NCBI RefSeq assembly: GCF_028993555.1
Contig: NZ_CP118610.1
Span: 3,213,001 to 3,277,000 of the forward strand
Source of the DNA: Ensifer adhaerens
GTDB taxonomy: Bacteria > Pseudomonadota > Alphaproteobacteria > Rhizobiales > Rhizobiaceae
Reading direction: 5' to 3'
DNA: 64,000 nt
This document shows, in pieces, positions 7,400 through 32,229 of this stretch (position 1 is its first letter; each line of letters starts with the position of its first letter). Both the position numbers and the translations under genes were made by a program. The notes under the pieces are model-generated. The model saw nothing but the letters and a program-made list of their open reading frames with translations, was not told the origin of the DNA and did no database searches.

Positions 7400-8092
7400 A
7401 TGCCGGCAGTCAAGAACATTGTGCTCGTACACGGCGCCTGGGGCGATGCGTCCCATTGGCGTCACATGATCCCGCCGCTCCACGCCAAGGGCTACAGGAT
7501 CGCCGCGGTGCAGAACCCACTGACCTCGCTTGCCGACGACGTAACGCGCACGCGCAAGCTCGCCGAATCGCTCGACGGCCCAACGCTGCTCGTCGGCCAC
7601 TCCTACGGGGGCGCTGTGATCAGTGGTGCTGGCCACGCGTCCAATGTCGTCGGCCTCGTCTATGTCGCGGCCTTCGCGCCCGATGAGGGCGACAGCCTCG
7701 GCAGCATCTTCGCGCGACGCGACCCGCCCTCCGGTGCCGCCAGCATCCGGCCCGACAAGGACGGCTTTCTCTGGCTGGCGCAGGACACCTTTCGCCAGAG
7801 CTTCGGCCAGGATTTGAACGAGACCGACGCGCTGGTCATGGCGGTGACGCAGAAGCCGATCGCGGCGCGTTGCTTCGAGGACAGGGCCGGACCGCCGGCA
7901 TGGAAGGCGAAGCCGAGCTGGTACCAGGTTTCGCGCCACGACAACATGATCCCGCCGGAAACCGAACAGTGGATGGCCGAACGGATCAAGGCAAAGAAGA
8001 TCATCACCCTGGATACCAGCCACGCTTCGCTTGCATCGCATCCAAAGGAGATCGTCGCACTGGTCGACGAAGCGATCGCGTCACTCGGCTAG
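7400..8092 (+). CDS. Alpha/beta hydrolase (esterase-like)
   Basis: The start at 7400 (230 residues) is chosen because AAAGGAACGG precedes it; upstream in-frame codons lack a ribosome site. IVLVHGAWGDASHW (residues 8-21) is the oxyanion-loop strand, VGHSYGG (near 72) carries the nucleophilic serine, and the histidine is likely in TLDTSHASLASHP near 215. This form is common in methylesterase/hydroxynitrile-lyase-like hydrolases. The substrate is unknown. It stands alone between tRNA-Val and a convergent peroxiredoxin-like gene. Confidence 0.82.
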   Translation: MPAVKNIVLVHGAWGDASHWRHMIPPLHAKGYRIAAVQNPLTSLADDVTRTRKLAESLDGPTLLVGHSYGGAVISGAGHASNVVGLVYVAAFAPDEGDSLGSIFARRDPPSGAASIRPDKDGFLWLAQDTFRQSFGQDLNETDALVMAVTQKPIAARCFEDRAGPPAWKAKPSWYQVSRHDNMIPPETEQWMAERIKAKKIITLDTSHASLASHPKEIVALVDEAIASLG

Positions 8093-25598: not shown

Positions 25599-28500
25599 AT
25601 GTCGATCAAGGCCAGCATCTACCACCTGACCCACTATATCTATGACCGTCCCGTAAGGCTGTCGCCGCAGATCATCCGGCTGAAACCTGCGGCCCATTCC
25701 AAGACCAAGGTCATCAGCCACTCGCTGAAGGTTTCGCCCGCCAATCACTTCGTCAACCTGCAGCAGGATCCCTACGGCAACTACCTCGCCCGCTTCGTCT
25801 TTCCCGATCCGGTGAGCGAACTGAAGATCGAGGTCGACCTTGTCGCCGATATGACTGTCTACAATCCCTTCGACTTCTTCGTTGAAGAAGAAGCCGAGCA
25901 CTGGCCCTTTGCCTACCCGGAAGATCTCAGCGACGATCTCAGGATCTACATGACCCCGGAGCCGATGGGACCGGCGCTCACCACCTTCATGGCGACGGTC
26001 GACCGCTCCCGCCAGCGGACCGTCGACATGGTGGTCGGACTGAACGCCCGCCTGCAGCACGAAGTCGGCTACGTCATCCGCATGGAGCCGGGCGTCCAGA
26101 CGCCGGAGGATACGCTGACGTCGGCCCGTGGCTCGTGTCGTGATTCGAGCTGGCTGCTTGTCCAGATCCTGCGCAATCTCGGTTTTGCCGCCCGCTTCGT
26201 CTCCGGCTATCTCATCCAGCTCACACCCGATCTCAAGGCGCTCGACGGCCCGACGGGTACCGACCATGACTTTACCGACCTGCACGCCTGGGCCGAGGTC
26301 TACCTGCCCGGCGCCGGCTGGGTCGGGCTCGACCCCACCTCGGGCCTCCTGACCGGCGAAAGCCATATCCCGCTTGCCGCCACCCCGCATTTCCGCAACG
26401 CAGCACCCATCTCCGGCGGCTTCTTCGGCGACCCCGATACCCGCACAGATTTCGCCTTCGACATGAAGGTGACACGTGTCGCCGAACATCCGCGGATCAC
26501 CAAGCCCTTCTCCGACGAGAGTTGGGAGGCGCTGAATGCGCTCGGCGAAGAGGTGGATCGGGTTCTTGAGGACAACGACATACGCCTGACGATGGGCGGC
26601 GAGCCGACCTTCGTTTCGATCGACGACTTCGAGTCCGAGGAGTGGAACACCGACGCGGTCGGGCCGACCAAGCGCGAAAAGGCGGACGCGCTGATCCGCC
26701 GCCTGCGCGAGCGCTTCGCGCCGGGCGGTTTCCTGCATTACGGCCAGGGCAAATGGTATCCCGGCGAGAGCCTGCCGCGCTGGACCTTCTCGCTCTACTG
26801 GCGCAAGGACGGTGTGCCGATCTGGCGCCGCCCCGACCTCATTGCCGAGGAGGCGGGCCGCCACGACGTCACCGAGAAGGACGCCGAACGTCTGCTGCAT
26901 CTGATGGCAGGCGAATTGAGCGTGCCGACCGAAATGGTCCAACCGGCCTTCGAAGACCCCGCCGACTGGCTGCTGAAGGAGGCAAACCTCCCCGAAAACG
27001 TCGATCCTTCCAATTCCAAGCTGAAGGATCCCGAAGAGCGCAGCCGCATGGCCCGTGTCTTCGAACGCGGCCTGACGACGCCGACCGGCTACGTGCTGCC
27101 TGTGCAAGCCTGGAATGCCCGGGCCACCGGCGTTCGGTGGATGAGCGAGAAATGGCAGACGCGCCGCGGCCGCATCTTCCTCGTTCCCGGCGATAGCCCC
27201 GTCGGTTATCGCCTGCCGCTCGGCGCCCTGCCCTATGTGGCGCCCTCCGCCTACCCCTATATCCATCCGCTCGACCCGACCGTCCCCCGGAACGACCTGC
27301 CTGACTTCGCCGAACGCAGCGCCCGTCCGCAGCACTCCCGCTTTCAAGCCGCGGAAGTACCGGAAACCCCGCAGGCCCAGCCACGCGACGAAATAGCCGG
27401 GCTGGTGCGCACCGCCATCAGTGTCGAGCCGCGCGACGGCAGGCTCTGCGTCTTCATGCCGCCGACGGCGAGCATCGAGGAATATATCGACCTGATCGCG
27501 TCTGCGGAGCGGGCGGCTGCCGCTCTCGGCCTGCCGGTGCACATCGAAGGTTATGCGCCGCCGCAGGACGAGCGCATCAACGTCATCCGCGTGGCGCCGG
27601 ACCCGGGCGTGATCGAGGTCAATATCCATCCGGCCGGCAGCTGGCAGGATTGCGTCGACATCACCACGGCGGTCTACGAGGAGGCGCGGCAGAGCCGGCT
27701 CGGCGCCGACAAGTTCATGATCGACGGACGTCACACCGGCACCGGCGGCGGCAACCATGTGGTCGTCGGCGGCGCCAATCCCAACGACAGCCCGTTCCTG
27801 CGCCGCCCGGACCTCCTCAAGAGCGTCGTCCTGCACTGGCAGCGCCACCCGTCGCTCTCCTACCTGTTCTCCGGCCTCTTCATCGGCCCGACATCACAGG
27901 CGCCGCGCATCGACGAGGCCCGGCACGATCAGCTCTACGAGCTTGAAATCGCGCTCGCCCAGGTGCCGATGCCGGGCTCGGCAACGCCGCCTCCACTTCC
28001 GTGGCTGATCGACCGGTTGTTCCGCAACCTGCTCGTCGATGTCACCGGCAACACCCACCGCGCCGAGATCTGCATCGACAAGCTGTTTTCCCCGGACGGC
28101 CCGACGGGACGCCTTGGCCTCGTCGAGTTCCGCGGTTTCGAGATGCCGCCGAATGCCCGCATGTCGCTCGCCCAGCAATTGCTGGTGCGCGCCCTCATCG
28201 CCCGCTTCTGGAAACACCCGGTTGATGGCCGCTTCGTGCGCTGGGGCACGGCGCTGCATGATCGTTTCATGCTGCCGCACCATGTCTGGCAGGATTTTCT
28301 CGAGGTGCTCGCCGACCTCAGGACCCACGGCTTTGATCTGAAGCCCGAATGGTTCGAGGCTCAGCTCGAGTTCCGCTTCCCCTTCTGCGGCGAGGTCGAA
28401 TACCAGGACGCCAGGCTCGAAATCCGCCAGGCGTTGGAACCCTGGCACGTCATGGGCGAGCAGGGCGCGATCGGCGGTACCGTGCGCTATGTCGACAGCT

Positions 28501-28925
28501 CGGTCGAGCGCCTGCAGGTCAAGCTCGATACTGCCAATCCCGAGCGCTATGCGGTCGCCTGCAATGGCCGGCCGATACCGTTGACGCGCACCGGCTCCAA
28601 CGGCTCGGCTGTTGCCGGCGTCCGCTACAAGGCCTGGCAGCCGGCCTCGGGGTTGCATCCAGTGCTGCCGGTCAACACTCCCCTTACATTCGACATCTAT
28701 GATACATGGTCGAATCGGGCGATTGGCGGATGTGTCTACCATGTCGCCCATCCGGGTGGGCGCAGCTACGACACGTTTCCGGTGAACGGCAACGAGGCCG
28801 AGGCGCGGCGCCTGGCGCGGTTCGAGCCCTGGGGGCATACGCCAGGAGGTTACCCGCTTCGCCCGGAAAACCCGTCGATGGAATTCCCGATGACGCTTGA
28901 TCTCAGGCGTCCACCAGGAGCGTAA
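25599..28925 (+). CDS. Transglutaminase-like protein fused to DUF2126
   Basis: Starting at the ATG at 25599 the protein has 1108 residues. Residues 1-90 form the bacterial transglutaminase N-terminal domain ([23 protein letters not shown]). A papain-like transglutaminase core follows with Cys in [12 protein letters not shown] (about 180), His in [12 protein letters not shown] (about 229) and Asp in GLDPTSG (about 246). The remaining 800 residues are DUF2126, beginning [20 protein letters not shown]. Such cores hydrolyse or transfer amide bonds. The next gene starts directly after its stop codon (TAAATG), so the two are translationally coupled. Substrate unknown; cytoplasmic, no signal peptide. 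Confidence 0.92.
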
Positions 28926-31334
28926 ATGGCGAAGAAGCAGACAGCTGCCGCGAACGATCGCGGTGCCGAGGACGATCCGGTCTTCGGCTACCGCGCCCTT
29001 CCTGATATCGCCGACGAGATGCTCGACCGGGAGGGCAATGTCCGTCCCGTATGGCAGCGCCTGCTCGCGACCCTGGGGCGGCTCGACGAAACGGAACTTG
29101 CCAACCGCTTCGCCCGCGCCGACCGCTACCTGCGTGATGCCGGCGTGTTCTATCGTGTCTACGGTGCCAAGGAGGCTTCGGACCGGAGCTGGCCGCTATC
29201 GCATATCCCCGTCCTGATCGACGAAAGGGAATGGGCAACGGTTTCGCAAGGGCTCGTGCAGCGTGCCGAGCTCCTGGAGAAGGTGGTCGCCGATATCTAC
29301 GGCGAGAACCGGTTGGTGCGCGAAGGTCTGCTTCCGCCGGCGCTCGTTGCCTCCAATCCGGAATTTCTGCGGCCGCTCGTCGGCGTGAAGCCGGCCGACG
29401 GTCATTTCCTCCATTTCGTATCCTTCGAGATCGGCCGTGGCCCCGACGGCAATTGGTGGGTGCTTTCGGATCGCACCGAAGCGCCATCCGGCGCGGGCTT
29501 CGCGCTGGAAAACCGGGTCGCGACCACGCGCGCCTTTTCCAATCTCTACGCGGAATCCCATGTCCACCGACTGGCGGGCTTCTTCGGTGAATTCCGAGAC
29601 GCGCTTCAGAGCCGCAAGCTTCATCCGGATGATCGCATCGCCGTGCTTTCGCCAGGCATCGCCAACGAGACCTATTTCGAACACGCCTATATCGCCCGCT
29701 ACCTGGGCTTCATGCTGCTTGAGGGTGAGGACCTGACCGTCGTCGGCGGTCGGGTGATGGTGCGAACCGTCGCCGGCCTCAAGCCGGTTGGCGTGCTCTG
29801 GCGTCGCCTTGATGCCGCCTTCGCCGATCCGCTCGAACTCAACCAGTCCTCGCATATCGGCACGCCCGGCATCGTCGAGGCGCTACGCGCCGGCTCGGTC
29901 TCGATCGTCAATGCGCTCGGCACCGGCATCGTCGAGACACGCGCCTTCCTCGCCTTCATGCCGGCGATCTGCCGCCATTTGCTCGGCGAGGAGCAGAAGC
30001 TCCCCTCGATCGCCACCTGGTGGTGCGGACAGCCGGCCGAGCGCGAACAGGTCGCTGCCAATCTCGATCGTATGGTCATCGGTCCGGCCTATGCGACGCG
30101 CCCCTTTTTCGATGACAACGGCCAGTCGCTGCTCGGCGCCACGCTAGATGAAAAAGCCCGCGCCTCGATCGCCGATTGGCTCGACGCCGAAGGCGGCAAG
30201 CTCGTCGGTCAGGAAGTCGTCACGCTTTCGACCACCCCCGCCTGGGTCCGTGGCCGGCTCACTCCACGACCCATGAGCTTGCGTGTCTTCGCGGCGCGGA
30301 CCCGTGACGGCTGGCAGATCATGCCGGGCGGTTTCGCCCGCATCGGCTCCGGCGACGATGTGGCCGCGATCGCGATGCAGGCGGGCGGCACCGCCGCCGA
30401 CGTCTGGATTGTCAGCGACCGTCCGGTCGAGCGCACCACATTGCTTCCGGCTGAGGAGAGCTTTACCCGCAACATGCCGGGAAGCCTGCCGAGCCGGGCA
30501 GCCGACAATCTCTTCTGGCTCGGCCGTTACATCGAGCGTTCGGAAGGGGCGCTGCGCATCCTGCGCGCCTGGCATGGCCGCTTTGCCGAAACCGCCGACC
30601 CGGACCTGCCGTTGCTGAGAGATGTCAGCGACTATCTCGACGCACTGGACATCGACACGCGCCAGCCGGTGCCCGACAGCCTGCTTGCCAACATCTCAAG
30701 CGCTCTTTTCAGCGCCGGCAACATCCGCGACCGGTTCTCCCCGGATGGATGGCTGGCGCTCAACGACCTTTCGCAGACGGCTCGCAAGTTTCACGCGACG
30801 GTGCAGTCGGGCGACGATGCGACCCGCGCGATGACGGTGCTGCTCCGCAAGCTCGCCGGCTTTGCCGGCCTCGTGCACGAAAACATGTACCGTTTCACCG
30901 GCTGGCGCTTTCTGTCGATCGGCCGATACCTGGAGCGCGGCCTTCACATGACGCGACTGCTCGGCCACATGTCGGGCCCCGATGCGCCCGACGGCGCCTA
31001 TGACATGCTGCTCGAGATCGGCGACAGCGTCATGACCCACCGCCGGCGCTACAATGTCAGCACCGCCGCCTTGACCGTGACCGACCTTTTGGCGCTCGAC
31101 CCGCTCAACCCGCGCTCGGTGCTCTACCAGCTGAACGAGATCAAGACCGAGGTGGAACTGCTGCCGAACGCCTTCGTCAACGGCCAGATGTCCCCCTTCT
31201 ACCGCGAGGCGATGCGCCTGCATTCGGGCCTCGCGGTGATGACGCCGGAAGCGATGAACCTCGGCGTCTACAATCGGCTGGAGCGGGATCTCGAAAGCCT
31301 GTCCGATCTGCTCGCACGAACCTATCTCGGCTAG
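28926..31334 (+). CDS. Circularly permuted type 2 ATP-grasp fused to alpha-E domain
   Basis: In this 802-residue protein the first 480 residues resemble the circularly permuted ATP-grasp family (DUF404/407): YGENRLVREGLLPPALVASNPEFLRP, VLSDRTEAPSGAGFALENR, and YIARYLGFMLLEGEDLTVVGGRVMVRT. From about residue 518 (LPSRAADNLFWLGRYIERSEGALR) it becomes an alpha-E helical domain. In most genomes the two domains are separate adjacent genes; here they are one chain. ATP-grasp enzymes join a carboxylate to an amine through an acyl-phosphate, so a peptide or amide ligase role is predicted from family knowledge. It is flanked by two transglutaminases. Confidence 0.92.
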   Translation: MAKKQTAAANDRGAEDDPVFGYRALPDIADEMLDREGNVRPVWQRLLATLGRLDETELANRFARADRYLRDAGVFYRVYGAKEASDRSWPLSHIPVLIDEREWATVSQGLVQRAELLEKVVADIYGENRLVREGLLPPALVASNPEFLRPLVGVKPADGHFLHFVSFEIGRGPDGNWWVLSDRTEAPSGAGFALENRVATTRAFSNLYAESHVHRLAGFFGEFRDALQSRKLHPDDRIAVLSPGIANETYFEHAYIARYLGFMLLEGEDLTVVGGRVMVRTVAGLKPVGVLWRRLDAAFADPLELNQSSHIGTPGIVEALRAGSVSIVNALGTGIVETRAFLAFMPAICRHLLGEEQKLPSIATWWCGQPAEREQVAANLDRMVIGPAYATRPFFDDNGQSLLGATLDEKARASIADWLDAEGGKLVGQEVVTLSTTPAWVRGRLTPRPMSLRVFAARTRDGWQIMPGGFARIGSGDDVAAIAMQAGGTAADVWIVSDRPVERTTLLPAEESFTRNMPGSLPSRAADNLFWLGRYIERSEGALRILRAWHGRFAETADPDLPLLRDVSDYLDALDIDTRQPVPDSLLANISSALFSAGNIRDRFSPDGWLALNDLSQTARKFHATVQSGDDATRAMTVLLRKLAGFAGLVHENMYRFTGWRFLSIGRYLERGLHMTRLLGHMSGPDAPDGAYDMLLEIGDSVMTHRRRYNVSTAALTVTDLLALDPLNPRSVLYQLNEIKTEVELLPNAFVNGQMSPFYREAMRLHSGLAVMTPEAMNLGVYNRLERDLESLSDLLARTYLG

Positions 31335-31350
31335 CGGGCAAAGGGACGAC

Positions 31351-32229
31351 ATGCTCTACGATATCAGCCTGAAGATCATCTATGACTATGAAGTACCGGT
31401 TTCCGGCGGGCGCCATCTCGTGCGCGTCATGCCGGCGACGCTTCCCGGTCGCCAGCGGCTCATCGTCGGTTCGCTCAGCTGCCAGCCAAATCCGGCCGAG
31501 CGCGCCGAAAGCATCGACTTCTTCGCCAACCCTTTCGCCTCGATCCTGTTTCGGTCTTCTCACGACGACCTGACGATCCGCATGCAAGCGCGGGTACAAG
31601 TGGAGCCGCAGCCTTTGACCGCGGATTTCTCACCTGACCTCGCGGGCCTGCCGGCCGAGCTTGCCGCCTGCTGGTCTGTCGACGCCGAAGCGCCGCACCA
31701 CTTCACGGGACCAAGCCCGCTGCTGCCGGAGACACCTGAAATTGCCGCCTACGCAAGGGCAATCATCGCCGAGACAATGACGGTCCGGCAGATCGCCGCG
31801 GCGCTGTGCGAGCGCATCCACCGCGATTTCACCTATGACGGCGAGGCCACCACAGTGAACACCACGCCCGCGGAGGCCTTCAAGCTGAAGCGCGGCGTCT
31901 GCCAGGATTTCACCCATGTGATGATCGTGGCGCTGCGAAGCCTCGGCATCCCCGCCGGCTATGTCAGCGGCTTCCTGCGGACAATCCCTCCGCCCGGCAA
32001 GGAGCGCCTTGAGGGTGCCGACGCCATGCACGCCTGGGTGCGGATATGGTGCGGCACCACAGGCGGCTGGCTCGAACTCGACCCGACCAACAATATTCCG
32101 GCGGGAACCGACCACATCGTCGTCGGCCACGGCCGCGATTACGGCGACGTCGCCCCGGTCATCGGGGTCCTCAAGAGCTACGGCAGCCAGACGACGAAAC
32201 AGGCCGTCGACGTCATTCCCGTTCTCTGA
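31351..32229 (+). CDS. Transglutaminase family protein
   Basis: The 292-residue protein has the transglutaminase N-terminal domain (MLYDISLKIIYDYEVPVSGGRHLVRVMP) and a core with the full triad: Cys in LKRGVCQDFTHVM (about 184), His in DAMHAWVRIW (about 227) and Asp in LELDPTNN (about 244). It starts 16 nt after the ATP-grasp gene and completes the three-gene operon. By family knowledge it would act as a peptidase or amide transferase on the ligase product or a protein target. No signal peptide. Confidence 0.92.
   Translation: MLYDISLKIIYDYEVPVSGGRHLVRVMPATLPGRQRLIVGSLSCQPNPAERAESIDFFANPFASILFRSSHDDLTIRMQARVQVEPQPLTADFSPDLAGLPAELAACWSVDAEAPHHFTGPSPLLPETPEIAAYARAIIAETMTVRQIAAALCERIHRDFTYDGEATTVNTTPAEAFKLKRGVCQDFTHVMIVALRSLGIPAGYVSGFLRTIPPPGKERLEGADAMHAWVRIWCGTTGGWLELDPTNNIPAGTDHIVVGHGRDYGDVAPVIGVLKSYGSQTTKQAVDVIPVL

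Follow-up and report, generated by a model that had tools for sequence, protein, structure and literature searches.

Clusters of the Anbu type were predicted in 2008–2009 (Valas and Bourne 2008; Iyer et al. 2009; both via PMC6376114 and PMC5666114), and the relevant passages of these two citing papers describe a function that has been unsettled since then. The ATP-grasp of the Yersinia bercovieri Anbu operon frees inorganic phosphate from ATP (its motif was not checked here), and Anbu itself displayed no peptidase activity in the cited part of that work (PMC6376114). Here we describe an operon of three co-directional genes at 25599..32229 on the plus strand of a 64,000-nucleotide (nt) stretch of Ensifer adhaerens DNA (contig NZ_CP118610.1, positions 3,213,001–3,277,000; the window). 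It encodes circularly permuted ATP-grasp, alpha-E, and transglutaminase domains together, as assigned with Pfam. The operon is real, conserved, and of a known predicted kind, which passages of PMC6376114, PMC5666114, and PMC3597751 trace to Iyer et al. 2009. The original prediction, made from the sequence alone, had its layout exactly right, i.e. the coordinates of the three genes, the TAAATG that joins the gene 1 stop to the gene 2 start, and the 16-nt gap between genes 2 and 3. The link that it drew to predicted amide-ligation clusters without an established substrate was also right. Its proposal of an undescribed system was not upheld, as the trio is common (DUF2126 is present in 129/397 Pseudomonadota genomes) and its kind was predicted in 2009.

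Gene 2 (28926..31334; 802 amino acids (aa)) encodes a circularly permuted ATP-grasp (aa 95–473) that is fused to an Alpha-E helical domain (aa 521–801; 30486..31328), and its Pfam matches, each over cut-off, lie in one chain (CP_ATPgrasp_2, 469 bits; CP_ATPgrasp_1, 288 bits; Alpha-E, 193 bits). The CP_ATPgrasp_1 profile is covered up to position 297 of 332 by gene 2 and to 332/332 by the unfused paralog of the same genome. Alignment to the Protein Data Bank (PDB) entry 3N6X and comparison with homologs revealed that the metal motif, E-D-N in intact ATP-grasps, is degenerate and reads S181-D182-R183 (29466..29474), with S181 and R183 at the Glu and Asn positions. The ATP lysine and Gly-rich loop, which follow a K-x(4)-SGGYG-like pattern in intact relatives, are gone (G386 and following; 30081..30137). 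In ATP-grasps, metal and ATP are bound by the E-x-N motif together with the ATP lysine and Gly-rich loop. Proteins were classed as window-type when their phmmer score was higher to P0002 than to L036, the second module of the genome (see below). The counts cover ATP-grasp open reading frames (ORFs) longer than 440 aa with no shared DUF2126 match; the window copy is one of the 134 window-type proteins, and families contribute several sequences each. In unfused ATP-grasps, E161, N163, K368, G374, G375, and G377 were each kept in 31/31 sequences, whereas the window-type proteins kept the Glu in 2/134, the Asn in 0/134 (Arg in 123), the Lys in 17/134, and G374 in 13/134, with no consistent substitute for the ATP lysine and Gly loop. 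Other invariant residues are retained (R94, D104, R275, N311, R430, and D468, each in 108/108). By pattern, the motif resembles D318/E330/N332 and K533 of GspS. This equivalence rests on fold and pattern because hhalign of our ATP-grasp alignments A5 and A4 against Escherichia coli GspS gave no match, and a profile search of the PDB with A5 returned 3N6X as the sole match.

The window-type sequences, 69/69 tips, form one clade on a branch of 0.78 with a FastTree support value of 100, in a tree that was built from 69 of the 134 window-type and all 56 unfused sequences after removal of the motif columns. The ratio of nonsynonymous to synonymous substitution rates (dN/dS) for seven pairs was 0.06–0.19 in the ATP-grasp part at high dS (0.8–1.5), which is near the values of 0.05–0.14 for the alpha-E part. 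The fused ATP-grasp domain is under purifying selection and is not decaying. As in a pseudoenzyme, the catalytic motif of gene 2 is gone, and its fold and the gene are kept under selection. Judging from its sequence, the gene 2 ATP-grasp apparently no longer has an ATP and metal site, and therefore another enzyme of the operon probably makes the bond. The original prediction had treated this ATP-grasp as a ligase and had named beforehand the outcome that would refute it, namely loss of the metal and ATP residues across homologs, which is what the window-type homologs display. The loss of the active site is new here as far as our literature search reached, and it changes which enzyme to test; the papers listed on inactive or pseudo ATP-grasps and on DUF403/404/407 yielded no statement of motif loss, with Iyer et al. 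2009 lying outside that search. Ligase assays on the fused protein would fail if its ATP-grasp is a pseudo-ligase, and the enzymes to test would then be DUF2126 and the intact paralog.

Gene 1 (25599..28925; 1108 aa; AlphaFold pLDDT 78) comprises a transglutaminase-fold region (aa 1–~275) and DUF2126 (aa 282–1103; 26442..28907), with Pfam matches to Bact_transglu_N, Transglut_core, and DUF2126 (1345 bits), each over cut-off. The predicted model of DUF2126 has a glutamine-synthetase-like fold. Among the structural matches listed for the gene 1 model, 49/50 were glutamine-synthetase or YbdK-type ligases, and the remaining one was the match of the transglutaminase domain. DUF2126 contains many invariant charged and polar residues, and no mention of it was found in the papers searched. 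The transglutaminase core (26007..26336) bears a candidate triad of C180, H229, and D245 (26136, 26283, and 26331) that is invariant across 60 aligned sequences. Gene 3 (31351..32229; 292 aa), with Bact_transglu_N and Transglut_core over cut-off, encodes a transglutaminase-fold protein with the triad C184, H227, and D244 (31900, 32029, and 32080). For proteins of at least 190 aa, the Cys was found in 142, the His in 144, and the Asp in 141 of 144 relatives of gene 3 (window and canonical kinds pooled), and a GSCRD-like motif was found in 142/144 transglutaminase–DUF2126 proteins. Genes 1 and 3 both carry a conserved Cys-His-Asp triad, and on this point, as on the domains and the ATP-grasp/alpha-E fusion, the original prediction was borne out. 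Several transglutaminase–DUF2126 proteins (P0012, P0014, P0096, P0099, and P0117) bear the public name 'IMP dehydrogenase', which is likely a misannotation.

The source genome contains one DUF2126, two alpha-E domains, and three Bact_transglu_N domains. A second, canonical module at C1 2773.7–2776.9 kb (L036), ∼462 kb from the window-type genes, encodes an unfused ATP-grasp of 487 aa (L036:7700-9163) with an intact motif, an alpha-E protein of 312 aa, and a transglutaminase-fold protein of 274 aa. This unlinked module lies outside the window, on which alone the original prediction was based. Among 192 Alphaproteobacteria genomes, Alpha-E is present in 75 and DUF2126 in 29, and Alpha-E occurs as two kinds, one standalone and high-scoring and the other lower-scoring and mostly in ORFs of ∼800–1000 aa. 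The fused form was confined to genomes with a standalone alpha-E (30/30; score and ORF length decided the fused status, except that G106, which lies at a contig edge, was assigned by hand, and four odd alpha-E matches in G054, G060, G149, and G154 were not scored as fused), as was DUF2126 (29/29). An ATP-grasp with the E-x-N motif was found in all 34 genomes concerned, i.e. the 30 with the fused form and four with DUF2126 but no fused gene. In view of this exceptionless co-occurrence in the sample, the two modules deserve joint study.

By strict criteria, the order of the trio was observed at 70/80 DUF2126 loci from named genome contigs, 20/29 from the class survey, 19/32 from the phylum survey, and 3/4 from the plasmid collection. 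Because it recurs at most DUF2126 loci surveyed, this order is not due to chance. Some of the exceptions can be put down to a contig that ends or to long ORF calls that overlap, and others are real differences, with no fused gene nearby or with divergent or reordered genes. One plasmid from Acidobacteriota also has this order, and one from Actinomycetota has a related pair of ATP-grasp/alpha-E and transglutaminase-fold genes. Enterobacter, Caballeronia, Burkholderia, and several further genomes have longer runs that join canonical and window-type genes; in a Burkholderia cenocepacia record (L228), ATP-grasp, alpha-E, transglutaminase-fold, transglutaminase–DUF2126, fused, and transglutaminase-fold genes follow each other on one strand. 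An IncFII-type plasmid of Enterobacter roggenkampii (NZ_CP116251.1; L158) carries a five-gene run of ATP-grasp, alpha-E, transglutaminase–DUF2126, fused ATP-grasp/alpha-E, and transglutaminase-fold genes, with an IS26 transposase gene ∼5 kb downstream. In L186 (G392), L197 (G501), and L046 (G106), DUF2126 genes are split, interrupted, or apart from the transglutaminase domain. The closest named protein relatives are from Ensifer/Sinorhizobium. The operon is flanked by an aldo/keto reductase gene upstream and by genes for a TadE/G-VWA protein, glycogen phosphorylase, and GlgB downstream. Clustering of flanking ORFs from 151 loci placed one family, by eye an ATP-binding cassette transporter ATPase, near 35 loci and several families, mostly Rhizobiaceae-type neighbors such as glgB by eye, near 16–18 loci (among the 16 largest families listed).

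Hydrolase genes were also surveyed. An Anbu peptidase gene is a frequent but not universal part of these systems. The sole Pfam proteasome-family gene of the source genome adjoins an HslU-like AAA gene. The Anbu-like protein P0244, whose name is inferred from a weak proteasome-beta match, is not recognized by Pfam and was therefore searched separately; matches, including weak ones down to an E-value of 1e-4, were found in 59/192 genomes and none in the source genome. A standalone alpha-E is present in 56/59 of these genomes, and in nine of the loci examined Anbu-like genes follow the canonical module (judged by start and place, with one family-scanned). Peptidase_Mx, a zinc ribbon with a metallopeptidase, had strong matches in 14/192 genomes (14 strong matches of 20). 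Every one of the 14 has a standalone alpha-E (p 5.7e-7), and the fused form is present in 10; within the standalone-alpha-E genomes, its association had a p of 0.015 with the fused form and only 0.066 with DUF2126. The single Peptidase_Mx gene of the source genome (C1:1390096-1390845; L227) is unlinked. Elsewhere, Peptidase_Mx sometimes adjoins the modules (L119, L160, and L222), and one flanking family near 12/151 loci includes a Peptidase_Mx example (L119; the example alone was scanned). In three genomes, a gene for an arginyltransferase-type (ATE) aminoacyl-tRNA-protein transferase lies directly 3′ of the canonical ATP-grasp/alpha-E pair (L210:6980-7708, L211:7054-7803, and L212:5648-6397); a link to N-terminal tagging is possible.

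Published data connect related genes with nitrogen. In the cited passages on B. cenocepacia H111, the common NtrC/sigma-54 targets include I35_5080 (DUF404/407), I35_5081 (DUF403), I35_5082 (transglutaminase-like), and I35_5083 (large transglutaminase-like), and the fused gene does not appear there (PMC5491218). Gene order and a like-named Sinorhizobium homolog suggest that I35_5083 is the DUF2126 protein. Excerpts of other studies report that Pseudomonas putida PP_2685 (proteasome beta type) and PP_2688 (a type 2 circularly permuted ATP-grasp) are strongly elevated on nitrate relative to ammonium (PMC8050072) and that, in marine metagenomes, the module domains vary together with those of urea metabolism (PMC3597751). 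Passages of PMC12096838, PMC10318531, PMC12419801, PMC8407117, and PMC13207237 contain nothing that alters the reading given below; the last of these gives a candidate RpoN site for a CP_ATPgrasp_1 gene of Bradyrhizobium. The Burkholderia NtrC data point to nitrogen limitation as the growth condition in which to seek the product.

In the reading that we favor, with moderate confidence, the operon serves as an accessory arm to the known Anbu-type system of amide ligation and hydrolysis, whose canonical copy in this genome is the L036 module; DUF2126 is the ligase, the fused chain is a pseudo-ligase, and the transglutaminase-fold modules hydrolyze or transfer. It builds on the domains, the motif loss, the single clade, the constraint, and the co-occurrence, together with the modeled fold of DUF2126, and it is further supported by the retained invariant residues, the resemblance to GspS, the Burkholderia run and NtrC data, and the phosphate release by the Yersinia ATP-grasp; the catalytic and binding steps, and the regulation in this organism, are those that we infer. 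The ATP-grasp of the arm would have been duplicated, have lost its ATP/Mg site, and have become fused to alpha-E, leaving a pseudo-ligase that may retain part of the ancestral pocket. DUF2126 would be the likely ATP-using ligase, converting a carboxylate to an acyl phosphate that is then joined to an amine, and the two Cys-His-Asp modules might cut the same amide bonds or transfer them via a thioester. The pseudo-ATP-grasp/alpha-E chain would bind substrate or product and would act as a regulator of, or a scaffold for, DUF2126, the intact ATP-grasp/alpha-E pair, or both. The arm would probably act under nitrogen limitation.

Several observations weigh against this assignment. Foldseek matches of DUF2126 to the glutamine-synthetase fold are weak (best E 0.05), hhalign and profile searches against GlnA, YbdK, and PDB sequences gave no useful match, and sequence comparison did not link the catalytic residues of DUF2126 with those of glutamine synthetase. 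DUF2126 is separable: it is missing from 5/30 genomes with the fused form, and the fused form is missing from 4/29 genomes with DUF2126 (25/29 have both). A Sinorhizobium meliloti record (CP090106.1 3164776-3179181; L165) has no DUF2126 gene and the order aldo/keto reductase, fused gene, transglutaminase-fold gene, tadG, glgP, and glgB; the 176-nt gap between the aldo/keto reductase and fused genes holds a 44-nt relic (82% identity) of the 3′ part of the DUF2126 gene. Because of this separability, the pseudo-ligase is not simply the partner of DUF2126. Among standalone-alpha-E genomes, Anbu is present in 19/30 that have the fused form and in 37/43 that lack it (p 0.047), a slight deficit that does not favor a tight tie to Anbu. 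The Fisher p-values ignore shared ancestry; those for the confinement to standalone-alpha-E genomes (2.6e-15 for the fused form and 9.5e-15 for DUF2126) are hence too small, yet the sample holds no exception. A search with the sigma-54 consensus, with two mismatches allowed, gave no site before gene 1, and matches were at chance level in the window (25 versus 28 expected) and in L036 (8 versus 8.6 expected), where one two-mismatch match (7689-7704) that is within chance extends into the 5′ end of the canonical ATP-grasp gene; there is thus no evidence for sigma-54 control in the source genome. Our literature search found no biochemistry of any window-type protein.

It is quite improbable that the fused ATP-grasp is an active peptide or amide ligase with the transglutaminase-like proteins as matching hydrolases, as most or all of the 134 window-type proteins have lost the metal ligands, ATP lysine, and Gly loop, which 31/31 unfused ones keep. 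The replacement of Asn by Arg in 123/134 proteins is not random and, with the strong purifying selection, would fit a fused ATP-grasp that remains catalytic through a non-canonical site, the Arg taking the place of the metal, as an ATP-independent transferase or with another nucleotide; the loss of the ATP lysine and Gly loop without consistent replacement nevertheless makes this unlikely. A redundant, slowly decaying duplicate without a function of its own might be suspected from the S. meliloti relic and from the 5/30 genomes with a fused gene but no DUF2126, but such a module would hardly have dN/dS of 0.06–0.19, open frames across Pseudomonadota with Acidobacteriota and Actinomycetota examples, and intact transglutaminase triads, and we regard decay as highly improbable.

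The operon could also be a cell-envelope or stress module with the transglutaminase-folds as the main enzymes and DUF2126 as a binding domain, which would accord with the missing sequence tie between DUF2126 catalytic residues and glutamine synthetase; the 49/50 ligase matches among those listed and the many invariant charged and polar residues of DUF2126 leave this explanation little weight. More tentatively than the accessory arm, we can envisage a nitrogen-responsive two-ligase machine in which the dead ATP-grasp/alpha-E is an obligate regulator or substrate carrier for the live pair and a glutamine-synthetase-type ligase, in a bacterial tagging or amide-storage pathway that pairs a live ligase with a dead one and has Anbu, the zinc metallopeptidase, or the transglutaminase-folds as alternative removers.

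Compared with known systems, the RloABC/RimBK genes likewise bring together ATP-grasp, transglutaminase-like, and peptidase functions, but in the passages cited these are a RimK-like ATP-grasp, a membrane transglutaminase-like protein, and an aspartic peptidase (PMC12239564). The DUF2126 model shares its fold with glutamine synthetase and YbdK carboxylate-amine ligases, whereas DUF2126 has no detected sequence similarity to them and contains long insertions. 3N6X, an unfused putative glutathionylspermidine synthase from Methylobacillus flagellatus, has LEDN and K-x(4)-SGGYG, whereas the window protein has LSDR and no loop. The I35_5080–5083 cluster, as described in the cited part of PMC5491218, matches with its DUF404/407, DUF403, and two transglutaminase-like proteins the first four genes of the L228 run, which comes from another strain. 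Burkholderia has canonical and window-type genes in one run, and the source genome has them far apart. The Anbu operon, according to passages of the papers cited for it above, shares with it the families of circularly permuted ATP-grasp, alpha-E, and transglutaminase-like proteins as well as their order, "it" being the operon of the window. In contrast, no Anbu gene was matched in the genome of the window, and the operon described here adds a transglutaminase–DUF2126 protein and fuses alpha-E to an ATP-grasp that lacks the metal/ATP motif.

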